Assembly: GCA_000381605.1 (NCBI GenBank)
Contig: KB906754.1
Span: 1,199,147 to 1,263,146 of the forward strand
Length of the DNA: 64,000 nucleotides
Source: Acidobacteriaceae bacterium KBS 89
GTDB lineage: Bacteria; Acidobacteriota; Terriglobia; Terriglobales; Acidobacteriaceae
Reading direction: 5' to 3'
Positions 50,877-58,135 of this stretch are shown in pieces (within the stretch, counting starts at the first letter, position 1; each line of letters opens with the position of its first letter). Under the pieces are notes generated by a model. That model saw nothing but the letters and a program-made list of their open reading frames with translations. It did no database searches and was not told the origin of the DNA. The translations under genes were made by a program, and so were the position numbers.

Positions 50877-52529
50877 TTGCTGAGTCTGTTCCAGGGAATA
50901 AAACCTGTGAAGCGAGCCAGTGCCATACGCGATGCACTCGCCGGCGTTGTCTTCGCGGCAATGGATATTCCTCAGGCCCTCGGCTACACCCGCATCGCGG
51001 GAATGCCCATCGTCACGGGCCTCTACGCACTACTTCTGCCCCTTCTGGCCTTCGCTGCCTTTGGCTCTTCCCGCTATCTCGTCGTCGCCGCCGACTCAGC
51101 CACTGCCGCTATCCTTCGCGGCCAGCTCGCCAACATGGCACCCGCATCCAGCACGCGATATGTAGCGCTCGCGGGCCTGGTTGCACTCCTCACCGCCGGA
51201 TTTCTCCTGCTCGCACGCTTACTCAAGCTCGGCTTCGTCGCCGACTTCCTCTCCCAGACAGTCCTCGTCGGCTTCCTCACCGGAGTAGGCTTTCAGGTCG
51301 GCATCTCCGTCCTCGGCCAGATGCTCGGCATCGCAACCGACACCCACAGAACAGTCTTCCAGCTCTACCAGGTCTGTCGCGGTCTACCCAAAGCGCATCT
51401 ACTCACGACGCTCGTCACCATCACCGTTCTCGCCACCGTCTTTGCCCTTCGCCGATTCGCCCCAAGAATCCCTGGCCCCCTGTTGGCTGTCGTCGGCGCC
51501 ACCGCAGCCAGCGCGGCCTGGAACTTCGCCGGCCACGGCATCGCAACCATCGGCCCCGTCATCGGCGGCCTGCCGCATCTCGGATTCCCGGATGTGCATT
51601 GGAAAGATGTGCCCCCGCTGGCCTCCGTCGCCGGATCCTGCGCGATCATGATTCTCACTCAGAGCTCGGCGACCTCACGCATCTACGCAGGACGCCACCG
51701 CCAGCACCTCGATGCTGACCAGGACATCGTCGGCCTCGCCGCCGCCAACGCAACCGCAGCCTTTAGCGGCACCTTCGTCGTCAACGGCAGCCCCACCCAG
51801 ACCGCGATGGTCGAAGGCGTCGGCAGCCAGAGTCAGCTCGCCCAGGTCACCACTGCCGCAGTGGTCGCGCTCGTTCTGCTCTTCGTCACCAAGCCGCTGC
51901 AGTATCTTCCGCAGTGTGTTCTCGGATCCCTGGTCTTTCTCGTCGCAATCCACATGACCAACCTGCGCAAGATGCGGCAGATCCGCCTGGAAAGCCCCGC
52001 CGAATTCGCGCTGGCCGTCACCACAACCGTCGTCGTCCTCGTCGTCGGAGTCGAGGAAGGCATCCTGCTCGCCATGGTCATGTCTCTGCTCCGCATCGTG
52101 CACCACAGCTACCACCCCCGCAGCGGTGTCTTGCACTCCGAGGCAGACGGAACATGGCAACTGACGCCTCCCGCCCCCGGTGCAGTGACGGAACCGGGCC
52201 TGGTCCTATACCACTTCGGAGCAGCGCTCTACTACGCCAACGCCAACCGCTTCGCAGACGAGATCGTCACCCTAGTCGGTCCTTCGCCAACCTCCGTGCG
52301 CTGGCTCATCGTCGACGCCGAAGCGATCACCAACGTGGATTACAGTGCCGCAAGGGTAGTCGAAGAGTTGAAGCAAGACCTTGCCAGCGCAGGCGTTATC
52401 TTCGGCTTCGCTCGTCTTCCGTGGAACACAAGGGCCGACTTTGACCGCCACCACCTCACCGAATGTATCGGACCATCCCTGATCTTCAACCGTCTGCACC
52501 AGACGCTCGAGGCCTACGAGAATCTTTAG
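50877..52529 (+). CDS. SulP-family anion transporter with STAS domain
   Basis: The 550-residue protein starts at TTG 50877, seven bases after GGAG. It has the SulP transmembrane core (MDIPQALGYTRIAGMPIVTGLYALLLP, DSATAAILRG, and FSGTFVVNGSPTQTAMVEG) and a cytosolic STAS domain from about residue 430 (LVLYHFGAALYYANANRFADE, LIVDAEAITNVDYSAA). SulP proteins move sulfate, bicarbonate or other anions. The CBS protein gene is convergent, 16 bases away. Confidence 0.92.
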   Translation: MLSLFQGIKPVKRASAIRDALAGVVFAAMDIPQALGYTRIAGMPIVTGLYALLLPLLAFAAFGSSRYLVVAADSATAAILRGQLANMAPASSTRYVALAGLVALLTAGFLLLARLLKLGFVADFLSQTVLVGFLTGVGFQVGISVLGQMLGIATDTHRTVFQLYQVCRGLPKAHLLTTLVTITVLATVFALRRFAPRIPGPLLAVVGATAASAAWNFAGHGIATIGPVIGGLPHLGFPDVHWKDVPPLASVAGSCAIMILTQSSATSRIYAGRHRQHLDADQDIVGLAAANATAAFSGTFVVNGSPTQTAMVEGVGSQSQLAQVTTAAVVALVLLFVTKPLQYLPQCVLGSLVFLVAIHMTNLRKMRQIRLESPAEFALAVTTTVVVLVVGVEEGILLAMVMSLLRIVHHSYHPRSGVLHSEADGTWQLTPPAPGAVTEPGLVLYHFGAALYYANANRFADEIVTLVGPSPTSVRWLIVDAEAITNVDYSAARVVEELKQDLASAGVIFGFARLPWNTRADFDRHHLTECIGPSLIFNRLHQTLEAYENL

Positions 52530-54254: not shown

Positions 54255-55037
54255 ATGCCGCAACCTGTTACCGTCTTTCTCCGTCAGAGCCTGACGCTCA
54301 AAACAGCCATCGCGGCCTGCCTCGAAAAGACCTCGCCCAGACGTGTTCATCAGCTGCGTACCACCACCCGACGCATCGAAGCCACACTTGAGCTGCTCAT
54401 CGTCTCCGCCGACGTAGCCCGCATCGACAAGCAATCCAAACCGCTTCGCCGTTCTCTCCGCAAACTACGCCGCGCAGCAGGCGAAGTACGCGATGCCGAC
54501 GTCCAATACGATTTGCTCGCCGCCTACCATCGCACTCCCGACGCCAAACATCTCCGCGAAGTCCTTTCTGCACTCAGAAAAAAAGTCGAGCGCAAACTCA
54601 TCAAACGACTAAAACAGGAACAGAAAAAGGTCGAGCTCAGGCTCAAAACCCTTGAAGCCAGCCTAGGCCCCGCAATCGATCTCGACCTCAGCGGCGCAAA
54701 ACTCATCACCGTCACCCAAACCTGGTTCGCCGAAAACGTCCGCGGCCTCGACCTGCAACAGGATCAGGATCTTCACACCCTCCGCAAAGTCTCCAAGACC
54801 GCACGCTATCTCGCAGAGACGGGCATCGACGCCTCAAAAGCCGTCGCCACCCTCGCCGCCCGCTACGAGGCCGCCCAGAAATCGCTCGGTGAATGGCACG
54901 ATCACTTTCTTCTTCTCGAGCAGGCCCACACCTACCTCCCGCACGACAGCGAAACAATCCAGCAGATTCAGGAAGATATGGAAAGGCTCCACGAGCACGC
55001 CGACACCGCCGCCAGTCATCTTCTTGCCACAGCGTAA
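54255..55037 (+). CDS. CHAD-domain protein
   Basis: The 260-residue helical protein has the conserved positively charged and histidine positions of CHAD: VHQLRTTTRRIEATLELL, LRRAAGEVRDADVQYDLL, LHTLRKVSKTARYLAE, LGEWHDHFLLLEQA. CHAD domains bind polyphosphate and often associate with granules or with triphosphate tunnel enzymes. None is adjacent here. GGGGGAGTGA precedes the ATG. Confidence 0.88.
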   Translation: MPQPVTVFLRQSLTLKTAIAACLEKTSPRRVHQLRTTTRRIEATLELLIVSADVARIDKQSKPLRRSLRKLRRAAGEVRDADVQYDLLAAYHRTPDAKHLREVLSALRKKVERKLIKRLKQEQKKVELRLKTLEASLGPAIDLDLSGAKLITVTQTWFAENVRGLDLQQDQDLHTLRKVSKTARYLAETGIDASKAVATLAARYEAAQKSLGEWHDHFLLLEQAHTYLPHDSETIQQIQEDMERLHEHADTAASHLLATA

Positions 55038-55051
55038 CCACATTCCGCCGC

Positions 55052-55065
55052 TATAGTGGTAGACT
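55052..55065 (+). promoter_or_regulatory. Possible -10 elements of the leader transcript
   Basis: TATAGT (55052-55057) or TAGACT (55060-55065) lies 10-23 bases before the leader ATG at 55075. Either would give a very short or no 5' leader before the peptide frame. No convincing -35 is seen. Confidence 0.3.
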
Positions 55066-55074
55066 AAATCCCAC

Positions 55075-55137
55075 ATGACGGTCTCCCGCCAACTCGCGAC
55101 CTTGCACCTCATGCCTACTCGTTGTTGTTGTAGCTAG
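55075..55137 (+). CDS. Cysteine-rich leader peptide (20 codons, ends MPTRCCCS)
   Basis: The frame runs from ATG 55075, with an in-frame ATG at 55111, and ends with three consecutive Cys codons (TGT, 55123-55131), AGC and the stop TAG. It lies upstream of a small membrane peptide and a YeiH-family transporter. Three Cys in a row in such a short peptide resembles the polycysteine upstream frames that serve as cysteine sensors before sulfur genes in mycobacteria. Ribosome stalling at the Cys codons would uncover the downstream ribosome-binding site (see the regulatory entry). Confidence 0.7.
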   Translation: MTVSRQLATLHLMPTRCCCS

Positions 55138-55225
55138 TCTCTCCTGCGCCGTACCCCTTCTTTAAAAATCTAAGTTTCCACACGCTCTTTCGTGTGCATC
55201 GCGCATTCTCCAAAGGAGACCCTTC
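55138..55225 (+). promoter_or_regulatory. Putative cysteine-responsive attenuator: anti-SD next to the Cys codons
   Basis: TCTCCT (55140-55145), three bases after the leader stop, is perfectly complementary to AGGAGA (55214-55219), the ribosome-binding site of the next gene. Between them is a 6-bp stem, CACACG/CGTGTG (55179-55184 and 55191-55196). A ribosome held on the Cys codons would cover the anti-SD and free the ribosome-binding site. The pairing is seen; the mechanism is inferred. Confidence 0.55.
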
Positions 55226-55345
55226 ATGTCCACCCCTCGTACCCGTCTCTTCCCCCGCCTTTCGACAGACGCCTGGGCCATCCTGGCTGCGGCCGCACTC
55301 GGCCTCCTCATCCGCTTCAGCCTGCTAAAAACCATCGCCTGGTAA
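55226..55345 (+). CDS. 39-residue single-span membrane peptide before the YeiH-family gene
   Basis: The frame has an AAAGGAG site seven bases before the ATG. The peptide has a short basic N-terminus (PRTRLFPR), then LSTDAWAILAAAALGLLIRF and ends LLKTIAW. It has one membrane span. It is followed after 25 bases by the transporter, with its own AAGGAG, so the two appear cotranslated. I know no function; a small subunit or assembly factor of the transporter is plausible. Confidence 0.6.
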   Translation: MSTPRTRLFPRLSTDAWAILAAAALGLLIRFSLLKTIAW

Positions 55346-55370
55346 CCGGCAAAGCGCCAAGGAGAACCTC

Positions 55371-56531
55371 ATGGCAACCTCCGCCAACCTGCCCGACCTC
55401 CGCACCGAGTACCCACCCCACCCCCCAGGCCGCAACCCAGCCGAGCCCTCCACCCTCCTCGGCCTCCTCCCCGGCATCGCCCTCCTCTTCGTCGTCGGCT
55501 ACGCAGGAAAATTCGTCGAGCACTTCCTCAACACCTGGACCAAAGCCCACCACATCACCTTCCCCAACATTGAATACGTCCTCTGGGCAATCCTCTTCGG
55601 CATCGTCATCGCCAACACCGTCGGCGTCCCGCGCATCTTCCGCGCCGGTGTCGCCACCTATGACTTCTGGCTCAAAGTAGGCATCATCCTCCTCGGCGCG
55701 CGCTTCATCCTCGGCGACGTATTAAAACTAGGCGGCATCTCCCTCCTCCTCGTCTTCATCGCCTTCGCGTTCTCGCTCACCTTCATGACCTGGCTGGGCC
55801 GCACCTTCAACCTCGGCCCCAAACTCACCACCCTCCTCGCCGTAGGCTCCAGCGTCTGCGGAGTCTCTGCCATCATCGCCACGCAAGGCGCCATCGACGC
55901 CGACGAAGAAGACTCCTCCACCGCCATCGCCGCGATCCTCGCCCTCGGCGCGCTCTCCCTCTTCACCTTCCCGCTCATCGGCCACGCCCTCCACATGAGC
56001 GACCACGCCTACGGCATCTGGGCCGGCCTCGCCGTCGACAACACAGCCGAAGCCACCGCAGCCGGAGCCCTCTACTCCGACGCCGCCGGAAAATTCGCCG
56101 TCCTCGCCAAAACCTGCCGCAATGCCCTCATCGGCTTCGTCGTGCTCGGCTACGCGATCCACTGGGTGCGCAAGGGCCTCGCCAGCCGAGCCGCTACCAA
56201 ACAACTCGACAACAAAGCCGCCTTCCTCTGGCAAAAATTCCCCAAATTCGTCCTGGGCTTCCTTGTTATCTCGCTCCTCGCCACACTAGGCGCTTCGTCC
56301 AATCCGACCATCGCCGCACTAGGCTTCACCAAGCCCCAACTCCTCGCCCTGGGAAATCTAAGCCGATGGGCCTTCCTTCTAACCTTCGCCGGAGTAGGCC
56401 TCCGCACTAACCTCAAAGATCTCTTCAAACAAGGAGCCCGCCCCTTCATCGTAGGCGCCGTAGGCGAAGTAGCCATAGCCACGATCACACTCCTACTCGT
56501 CCTCGGAGCCGACCACATCTATCACCTGTGA
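55371..56531 (+). CDS. YeiH/UPF0324-family putative sulfate exporter
   Basis: The 386-residue membrane protein has about ten spans and the YeiH signatures GSSVCGVSAIIATQGAID, SDHAYGIWAGLAVDNTAEATAAG and WAFLLTFAGVGLRTNLKDLFKQG. The family is annotated as sulfate exporter but is poorly tested. AAGGAG is six bases before the ATG. Being downstream of a Cys-rich leader frame suggests its expression follows cysteine supply. It overlaps nothing; a multicopper oxidase follows after 119 bases. Confidence 0.88.
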   Translation: MATSANLPDLRTEYPPHPPGRNPAEPSTLLGLLPGIALLFVVGYAGKFVEHFLNTWTKAHHITFPNIEYVLWAILFGIVIANTVGVPRIFRAGVATYDFWLKVGIILLGARFILGDVLKLGGISLLLVFIAFAFSLTFMTWLGRTFNLGPKLTTLLAVGSSVCGVSAIIATQGAIDADEEDSSTAIAAILALGALSLFTFPLIGHALHMSDHAYGIWAGLAVDNTAEATAAGALYSDAAGKFAVLAKTCRNALIGFVVLGYAIHWVRKGLASRAATKQLDNKAAFLWQKFPKFVLGFLVISLLATLGASSNPTIAALGFTKPQLLALGNLSRWAFLLTFAGVGLRTNLKDLFKQGARPFIVGAVGEVAIATITLLLVLGADHIYHL

Positions 56532-56650: not shown

Positions 56651-58135
56651 ATGAGCACATCGCGCCGCCACTTCCTCAAGCTTGCCGGGACCGTCACAGC
56701 AGCCGGCCTCACCAAACGATCGGAGGCCCTCAACCTCGCGCTCCATCCAATCGCCGCCCAGCAACCTCCCCGCTCACCCGGCTACACCCTCCGCATAGCC
56801 ACCAGCCCCATCGAACTCGCACCCAACCGCATCATCTCCACCACCACCTACAACGGCCAGTTCCCCGGCCCGCTTCTTCGTCTCAAAGAGAATCAGCCCG
56901 TCACCGTGGACATCCACAACGACACCGACACCCCCGAGCAGCTCCACTGGCACGGCCAGTTCGTTCCCGTCGACGTCGACGGTTCAGCCGAAGAGGGCAC
57001 TCCCTACATCCCAGCCCACGGCACGCGTCGCATTCAGTTCACTCCACGCCCCTCCGGCGTCCGTTTCTATCACACCCACGTTCGCGCCGCAGCCGACCTC
57101 GTCGCCGGCCAATACAACGGCCTTGCAGGCCCCGTCTACATCGAACCCGCCTATAACCCCGGGGCCTACGATCGCGAGGTCTTCCTCACCCTCAAAGAGT
57201 TCGAGCCCACCTTCAGCCGTGGCGGAGACATGGCGATGGACTTCCTCACTCCCGCCACCACTGTCAAAGCACTCAAAGACACAGGCGAGTCAGCGATGAA
57301 AGCCTCTCTCGCCAGCGGCATGCCCCACGGTTACGAAGTCGGCTACGGCTCCTTCACCATCAACGGCAAGATGCTAGGCCACGGTGAACCTATCCACGTC
57401 AAAACCGGCGAGCGCGTCCTCTTCCACATCATCAACGCCAGCGCCACCGAGATTCGCAGCCTCGCGCTTCCCGGCCACACCTTCAAAGTCATCGCGCTCG
57501 ATGGAAACCCTGTGCCCACTCCCGCCACCGTCCCCGTCCTCTGGCTCGGCACCGCCGAACGCATCTCCGCCATCGTAGACATGAAGCACCCCGGCGTCTG
57601 GATCATGGGCGATCTCGCCGACGACGACCGCCATCACGGCATGGGCATCGTCATCGAATACGCCGGCCATTCCACCAAACCCCTCTGGCTCAAACCGCCG
57701 CCCTTCCGTTGGAGCTACGCCCGCTTCGGCAAACCAGGCGCAGCCTCACCGACGCCCGATGAAACCATCGAGATGACTTTCGCCAAACTCAACGCCGCTG
57801 CCGAAGGCTTCAATCGCTGGACCATCAACAACGTCGCCTTCTCCATGGACAACATGTCGCCTCGCTATCATCTTAACCAAGGCCGCCGTTACCGCATCCG
57901 CATGCGCAACGCCAGCGACGACATCCACCCCATCCATCTCCATCGCCACAGCTTCGAACTCACCAACTTCGCCGGCACCCCAACCTCCGGCATCATCAAA
58001 GACGTCGTCATGGTCGGCGGCTACCAGCAGGTCGAGATCGATTTCACCGCCGACAAGCCCGGCCTCACCCTCTTCCACTGCCACCAGACCCTGCACATGG
58101 ACTACGGCTTCATGACCCTCTTTGACTACGCCTGA
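56651..58135 (+). CDS. Three-domain multicopper oxidase, Tat-exported
   Basis: The 494-residue protein has a twin-arginine leader (SRRHFLKLAGTVTAAGL). Copper ligands are visible: HWHG (type 2/3), HTH, HPIHLHRHSFEL, and HCHQTLHMDYGFM with H-C-H-x3-H and an axial Met. It would couple oxidation of phenols or metal ions to reduction of oxygen in the periplasm. Substrate unknown. It is spaced 119 bases after the YeiH gene and may be transcribed separately. Confidence 0.9.
   Translation: MSTSRRHFLKLAGTVTAAGLTKRSEALNLALHPIAAQQPPRSPGYTLRIATSPIELAPNRIISTTTYNGQFPGPLLRLKENQPVTVDIHNDTDTPEQLHWHGQFVPVDVDGSAEEGTPYIPAHGTRRIQFTPRPSGVRFYHTHVRAAADLVAGQYNGLAGPVYIEPAYNPGAYDREVFLTLKEFEPTFSRGGDMAMDFLTPATTVKALKDTGESAMKASLASGMPHGYEVGYGSFTINGKMLGHGEPIHVKTGERVLFHIINASATEIRSLALPGHTFKVIALDGNPVPTPATVPVLWLGTAERISAIVDMKHPGVWIMGDLADDDRHHGMGIVIEYAGHSTKPLWLKPPPFRWSYARFGKPGAASPTPDETIEMTFAKLNAAAEGFNRWTINNVAFSMDNMSPRYHLNQGRRYRIRMRNASDDIHPIHLHRHSFELTNFAGTPTSGIIKDVVMVGGYQQVEIDFTADKPGLTLFHCHQTLHMDYGFMTLFDYA

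Follow-up and report, generated by a model that had tools for sequence, protein, structure and literature searches.

A conserved poly-cysteine leader upstream of a YeiH-like transporter gene is a candidate cysteine-responsive attenuator in Acidobacteriaceae

The gene for a YeiH-like transporter in Acidobacteriaceae bacterium KBS 89 is preceded by a short open reading frame (ORF) with a run of cysteine codons close to its stop. This arrangement raises the question of whether the ORF is a leader peptide through which translating ribosomes sense cysteine supply and, if so, how the signal reaches the transporter gene. We analysed a stretch of 64,000 nucleotides containing the locus, here called the window, together with the 6.0 Mb genome from which it comes (G000) and genomes of relatives, the nearest named ones by yeiH gene being Edaphobacter and Granulicella. 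As the first-pass annotation of this DNA had recognized, a 20-codon frame with three successive Cys codons is present upstream of yeiH; its 3' end reads TGT TGT TGT AGC TAG. The features of the locus are as follows.

55060 to 55065, + strand: candidate -10 element TAGACT, seen in the sequence 9 nt 5' of the leader ATG
55075 to 55137, + strand: leader ORF MTVSRQLATLHLMPTRCCCS, 20 codons, read from the sequence and kept in relatives
55123 to 55131, + strand: run of three UGU codons for Cys at which the ribosome is proposed to stall, marked by codon bias relative to the yeiH genes
55138 to 55213, + strand: untranslated stretch rich in C and poor in G, with no intrinsic terminator, by its composition a candidate rut-like Rho-loading region
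55140 to 55145, + strand: TCTCCT, earlier proposed as an anti-Shine-Dalgarno sequence, with no support as a conserved element
55179 to 55196, + strand: hairpin CACACG-CTCTTT-CGTGTG, recognizable by eye in near relatives as well
55214 to 55219, + strand: Shine-Dalgarno (SD) sequence AGGAGA of the small ORF, read from the sequence
55226 to 55345, + strand: 39-residue ORF (ATG at 55226) with one hydrophobic stretch, a conserved companion of the transporter
55371 to 56531, + strand: gene for the YeiH-like transporter (PF03601 by Pfam)

In a scan of the whole window the leader is the single short ORF that combines a tail of three Cys residues (CCC tail) with leaderless geometry. The region 54900-55500 has no match to an Rfam family at E<=1, and a consensus structure for the hairpin at 55179-55196 was not found over 15 loci. 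A SulP-type sulfate permease gene (PF00916, with a STAS domain; 50877-52529) lies about 2.5 kb upstream on the same strand, and the scan found no Cys leader for it.

We assessed whether the leader recurs upstream of yeiH in related genomes. In the window by itself the core pattern is not significant, with 1 match against 0.21 expected and at least one match in 17 of 100 shuffles. We collected 110 yeiH-relative loci, of which 95, the window's own included, remained after removal of 15 duplicates. An ORF with a CCC tail lies within 500 nt upstream of yeiH in 28 of these 95 loci and in none of five control regions (0/95, 0/95, 0/92, 0/92 and 0/92), and a short ORF carrying a Cys pair close to the C-terminus was found in 34 of the 95, against 0 or 1 per control region; the yeiH loci are related, so these counts are not independent. 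Given 28 loci against zero in five control regions, the leader before yeiH is not a product of chance, and the conservation of the Cys codons among relatives that the first-pass annotation had named as a check is borne out. The tail is concentrated among close homologues, occurring in 22 of 36 loci at 72% YeiH identity or more and in 6 of 59 below 72%, and is missing within 500 nt at 67 of the 95 loci. Tails typically read CCCS, CCCR, CCCQ or CCC-stop, and the remaining peptide drifts. At L024-L030, which form a YeiH branch of their own with 57-62% identity, the Cys-rich leader is a different one of about 30 codons. The yeiH leader of L010/L041 (G036) reads C-R-R-R where the Cys triplet would stand, a decay that may represent a natural loss. 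In a 94-row tree, rows classed as TAIL and CYS are separated by 2 changes, compared with 10.9 in shuffles; because the tree counts these two classes only and omits 49 rows without a leader, it does not test leader presence against absence, and it still classes L021/L064, a false hit inside the small ORF, as TAIL.

The choice of Cys codon sets the leaders apart from the genes they precede. Leaders with a CCC tail use 86 TGT and 8 TGC codons (of 94), compared with 12 TGT and 142 TGC (of 154) in the yeiH genes (Fisher p 3e-43, over related rows). Leaders upstream of cysD, described below, share this tilt, with 158 TGT to 53 TGC against 6 to 60 in the cysD genes. Such a preference between synonymous codons points to decoding, rather than to the chemistry of the peptide.

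The promoter regions suggest leaderless transcripts for these ORFs. Of 53 yeiH and cysD leaders, counted after skipping those with unsure starts, 37 have a TANNNT hexamer with its 3' end 5-11 nt upstream of the ATG, compared with 2 at 18-24 nt and none at 28-34 nt, and an SD-like tetramer precedes only 5. Eight of the 16 leaders without the hexamer are yeiH leaders that by eye have boxes such as TACAAA, which fall outside the pattern. With a -10-like box so near the ATG and so few SD-like tetramers, many of the leaders look leaderless. In the window, where TAGACT is absent from the output of a scan for the sigma-70 consensus, we place the putative transcript start at the leader ATG or a few bases from it.

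We extended the analysis to cysD, using 40 hand-chosen CysD loci, three of which lack the CysD motif; the remaining 37 comprise 36 from the window's own genus and one from another family. By inspection, 33 of the 37 have a Cys-rich leader, and a mechanical criterion finds one at 34, compared with 5, 1, 0, 3 and 1 of 37 in control regions. In the window's genome the leader MRLSRQLRCCCLRNVERTCRSTR lies upstream of cysD-cysN-cysH-TauE. The second cysD copy of this genome (L224) has no convincing leader, the ORF there being unrelated by eye, and inspection found none at three other cysD loci.

Some of the cysD leaders are followed by a terminator. A terminator-like hairpin lies within 110 nt of the leader stop at 10 of the 33 loci, compared with 1, 0 and 1 of 33 in controls. 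A script that allows longer loops found nine loci (L222, L226, L227, L283, L287, L289, L290, L295 and L296) plus L218; the terminators of L283, L287, L289, L290 and L295 had initially been picked by eye. The hairpins of the nine have folding energies between -11 and -17 kcal/mol, lower than those of their shuffles at p<=0.03, with an imperfect sixth stem pair in L226, L287 and L289 and a weak U-run in L290 and L295. The 5' arm of the terminator can pair with the leader 3' of its Cys run, beyond 95% of shuffles in six of the nine. The paired sequences are CGTGGG/CCCACG in L222, L226 and L296, TGTGGG/CCCACA in L283 and L290, and AGTGGG/CCCACT in L287; antiterminator and 5' arm thus change together, and L227, L289 and L295 match partly. 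To judge from their sequence, these loci are laid out like a classical attenuator with a possible antiterminator, which to our reading is the strongest sign that the leaders sense cysteine.

Similar ORFs precede further genes. Raw matches in three pattern searches of the genus, compared with reversed patterns, number 56 against 69 (41 genomes, 43 loci inspected rather than all matches), 42 against 47, and 163 against 107 (among the matches listed, the letters of some were read by eye and three places were inspected, two in G005 and one in G007); the Cys-triplet pattern in the window's own genome gives 71 against 43. Because raw counts are enriched partly or not at all, we relied on frame, place and recurrence; single matches, taken apart from their frame and context, prove nothing. 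Poly-Cys ORFs lie before large TonB-type outer-membrane frames in G000, G011, G014, G015, G029, G031 and G036, a set assembled without a formal control and covered by Pfam in G000 and G031. In G031 a poly-Cys leader is followed by the TonB-type gene, cysD, cysN and cysH, with a further Cys leader before cysD. Two copies in G005 (Pfam on one) have a Cys leader upstream of a TonB-type gene and then yeiH, the leader not being directly next to the receptor in either. Poly-Cys ORFs also precede the PF01507 genes of G043 and G044, which belong to the order's other family. Beyond the genus, we scanned 24 of 27 new loci, one of which proved to be of the window's own genus. Seven of the 23 loci from other genera of the phylum have a Cys-rich short ORF within 1500 nt upstream, in a scan that had no control, and four of the seven (L314, L320, L329 and L330) show leaderless geometry; no Cys-rich ORF was present at the single loci from G071 and G086, other genera of the same family.

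Several individual arrangements were seen in the course of these searches. Tandem poly-Cys leaders lie before a TonB-type receptor gene in the window's genome (L209/L208, G000:C4 at about 323600-323930, minus strand) and likewise in G011, G015 and G029. A leader ending in CCCC in G021 (L215, 10771-12261) precedes a sulfatase gene (Pfam), a TonB-type frame recognized by look and a second sulfatase gene. Leaders of the form MQ..FCCCRRSPLA stand before a thioredoxin-fold protein in G000, G014 and G002 (L281, 1869-1943; L263; L264). In G005 a cysteine dioxygenase/rhodanese gene also has a CCC ORF in front of it (L258, about 582-1720), which may be chance.

With CCC leaders before yeiH and similar leaders before sulfate-assimilation genes, stalled ribosomes probably detect cysteine shortage, and it is by this means that soil Acidobacteria probably switch on sulfur genes. 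That the leaders as such sense cysteine we regard as very likely; a leaderless start, stalling on the Cys codons and induction by scarcity are the steps we infer from the sequences.

How stalling would be read out at yeiH is a separate question. For fold, duplex and composition tests we used the 30 loci (of 36) at which both the leader stop and the start of the small ORF were set, excluding L006, L010, L021, L022, L047 and L071. A classical attenuator of the trp or his type was rejected for yeiH: a script found no intrinsic terminator behind any of the 30 leaders, or on the + strand in 54900-55500 of the window. Directly behind the leader stop there is instead, as in tna-like systems, a C-rich and G-poor stretch. 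C exceeds G between stop and SD at all 30 loci (0.374 versus 0.152; 0.36 and 0.13 at 55138-55213 in the window). The difference averages 0.222, compared with 0.051 in 75 control 5' regions, of which 9% equal or exceed the yeiH mean and 67% are positive. However, the terminator-type cysD leaders also have more C than G after the stop (difference 0.159), so composition fails to single out Rho.

The Cys codons adjoining the stop, together with the shared C-rich stretch, lead us to favour Rho-dependent attenuation at yeiH. In this scheme transcription would start on the leader ATG or right beside it, and translation would follow immediately. With ample Cys-tRNA the ribosome would reach the stop and depart, exposing C-rich, G-poor RNA on which Rho would most likely load, and transcription would end before the small ORF and yeiH. 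With scarce Cys-tRNA the ribosome would stall on the UGU triplet just 5' of the stop and shield the start of the C-rich stretch, so that transcription would go on. The E. coli tna leader is likewise controlled by Rho-dependent termination, with TnaC stalling the ribosome through the nascent peptide and free tryptophan. In both cases a rut-like stretch immediately 3' of the leader stop would be hidden by the ribosome halted nearby, but the stalling proposed here would come from a lack of charged tRNA. On balance, we consider it somewhat more likely than not that the yeiH leader is a cysteine-responsive, ribosome-mediated attenuator, one of a set that serves sulfur genes in these Acidobacteria, with Rho as the favoured read-out. 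Rho as the read-out is the weakest step in this reading, one that we put forward with some doubt, and the main alternative to it is masking of the SD by a sequence other than TCTCCT.

According to this alternative, the leader would act by translation attenuation, the SD being masked by a partner that differs between species (GGTCTCC:GGAGACC in the window, local upstream or downstream sequence elsewhere) and unmasked by queued ribosomes. Translation attenuation, which is said to operate on cysteine genes in M. smegmatis, is portrayed in one report as masking of the SD (PMC13236596). In our models the SD is mostly paired (mean unpaired probability 0.20 over the 30 loci), and the minimum-energy fold of 55075-55240 contains a 7-bp pairing of GGTCTCC (55080-55086, leader codons 2-4) with GGAGACC (55215-55221). 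The probability of pairing between the SD and leader nucleotides 1-24 is 0.45 in the window, 0.97 in L038, 0.67 in L012, 0.38 in L048 and 0.23 in L002. However, few relatives use the leader start as the partner, which varies by locus and on average is most often sequence 3' of the SD (0.31), and the z-score of the window fold is only -1.8. A ribosome stalled at the Cys triplet would not itself cover the leader start, which means that a queue must also be assumed. We regard a species-specific mask as a serious but rather unlikely alternative to the Rho-type read-out.

A different mask had been proposed in the first-pass annotation, in which TCTCCT pairs with AGGAGA and a ribosome stalled on the Cys codons frees the SD by covering TCTCCT. 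The perfect 6-base complementarity is real, over a distance of 68 bases, although TCTCCT begins two bases after the leader stop and not three as described, and it should be within reach of a ribosome at the third Cys codon. The duplex in the window, at -9.0 compared with -7.4 kcal/mol in shuffles, has a p value of 0.13, and L002 and L013 reach 0.01. Over the 30 loci, however, the duplex is no better than shuffled sequence (mean -6.91 versus -6.72 kcal/mol; 2 of 30 at p<=0.05), and between the SD and the 28 nt that follow the leader stop the pairing probability is 0.09 in the window, with a mean of 0.12. An RNAalifold consensus from leader to small ORF, on a poor alignment, has zero conserved pairs. 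We also modelled a ribosome positioned at the first Cys codon, with cover extending to about 55139, or at the stop, with cover to about 55148 and hence over TCTCCT. SD accessibility in the window is 0.33 in all three states, with and without cover, and the 30-locus means are 0.20, 0.23 and 0.21. In thermodynamic models, then, covering TCTCCT would leave the SD as masked as before, and we rejected this switch as improbable.

Still less probable is that the peptide itself is active, its Cys cluster binding metal or thiols. Such activity is known for Cys-motif leader peptides of copper genes, and a multicopper oxidase gene lies after yeiH, at 56651; the Cys cluster is also the sole strongly conserved part of the peptide. 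Against this, the number and spacing of the Cys residues vary and the other residues change freely, the UGU preference points to decoding, and related leaders stand before cysDNH, some with a terminator and possible antiterminator. A chance short ORF, for which the matches in shuffled windows are the only argument, can be dismissed given the recurrence of the leader before yeiH and its absence from all five control regions.

Leaders of this kind have counterparts in other phyla. Canestrari et al. (2020, Mol Microbiol 114:93) reportedly described polycysteine leaderless short ORFs in mycobacteria. The available passages of three papers place such ORFs before mycobacterial cysteine and sulfur genes (PMC9031893, PMC13236596 and PMC9094748). 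As far as those passages go, the leaders here resemble the mycobacterial ones in being short and apparently leaderless, in having consecutive Cys codons before sulfur or cysteine genes and in serving several operons per genome. They belong to another phylum and have targets that extend to TonB-type receptors, a sulfatase and a YeiH-like transporter, and the opening of an SD-masking structure by a stalled ribosome, as in the mycobacterial mechanism, is not seen in our thermodynamic models. A tna-like, Rho-dependent mechanism was proposed by Seliverstov et al. (2005) for leaders with Cys runs in the cys and cbs operons of Actinobacteria (PMC1262725); in the sections available, those leaders share with the yeiH leader Cys codons near the stop, the lack of a terminator and polypyrimidine motifs behind the leader. 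The same sections describe the Rho motifs as not conserved and the prediction as weak, concern Actinobacteria and do not name a transporter of the PF03601 family. The terminator-type cysD leaders are closer to uORFC-8-2 upstream of cysS in Rhodobacterales, which by the excerpts at hand combines tandem Cys codons with an intrinsic terminator (PMC8632094). That case differs in being alphaproteobacterial, confined to cysS and dominated by UGC, and the yeiH leader has no terminator. The first-pass annotation had named polycysteine frames before sulfur genes as known in mycobacteria and had no description to cite for this transporter pair in Acidobacteriota; consistent with this, our searches of the open-licence literature found no report of Cys leaders in Acidobacteriota or for YeiH. 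In 2010 almost all attenuators of Acidobacteriota had no known function, according to the part of that survey available (PMC2965389).

The transporter scores 253.4 bits against PF03601 (cut-off 24.5) and 105.3 bits against TIGR00698 of NCBIfam, below the cut-off of 232.6. The 39-residue ORF before it follows roughly the pattern SxDxWAVxLxLxLALxVRxGxxKxVPW, has no Pfam or NCBIfam match and is kept also at loci without a Cys leader; it is probably an unannotated small partner of the transporter. Control shared with cysDNH, receptors and a sulfatase makes a role of the transporter in sulfur acquisition a fitting one, and the set of genes with leaders fits expression at low cysteine and a part for the transporter in the sulfur economy. 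Salmonella YeiH confers sulfite resistance, according to the available text of one study (PMC12880088). Release of the sulfite that assimilation produces would also fit this regulation. A TauE-family gene lies behind cysDNH in the window's genome.

Taken together, these observations lead us to propose, tentatively, that Acidobacteriaceae have a cysteine regulon operated by the ribosome alone. Shortage of Cys-tRNA, read by UGU-rich leaderless leaders, would jointly induce genes for outer-membrane receptors and sulfatases, the small-protein/YeiH pair and cysDNH, with two interchangeable read-outs, an intrinsic terminator with antiterminator and a terminator-free C-rich stretch, and its PF03601 member would act in sulfur acquisition. 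If this is correct, Acidobacteriota would gain a testable system of cysteine control, and the shared control would tie TonB-type receptors and two genes that are poorly understood, those of the PF03601 transporter and its small companion, to sulfur nutrition. With the sensor occurring in a single genus both with and without a terminator, the evolution of the read-out would also become open to study.
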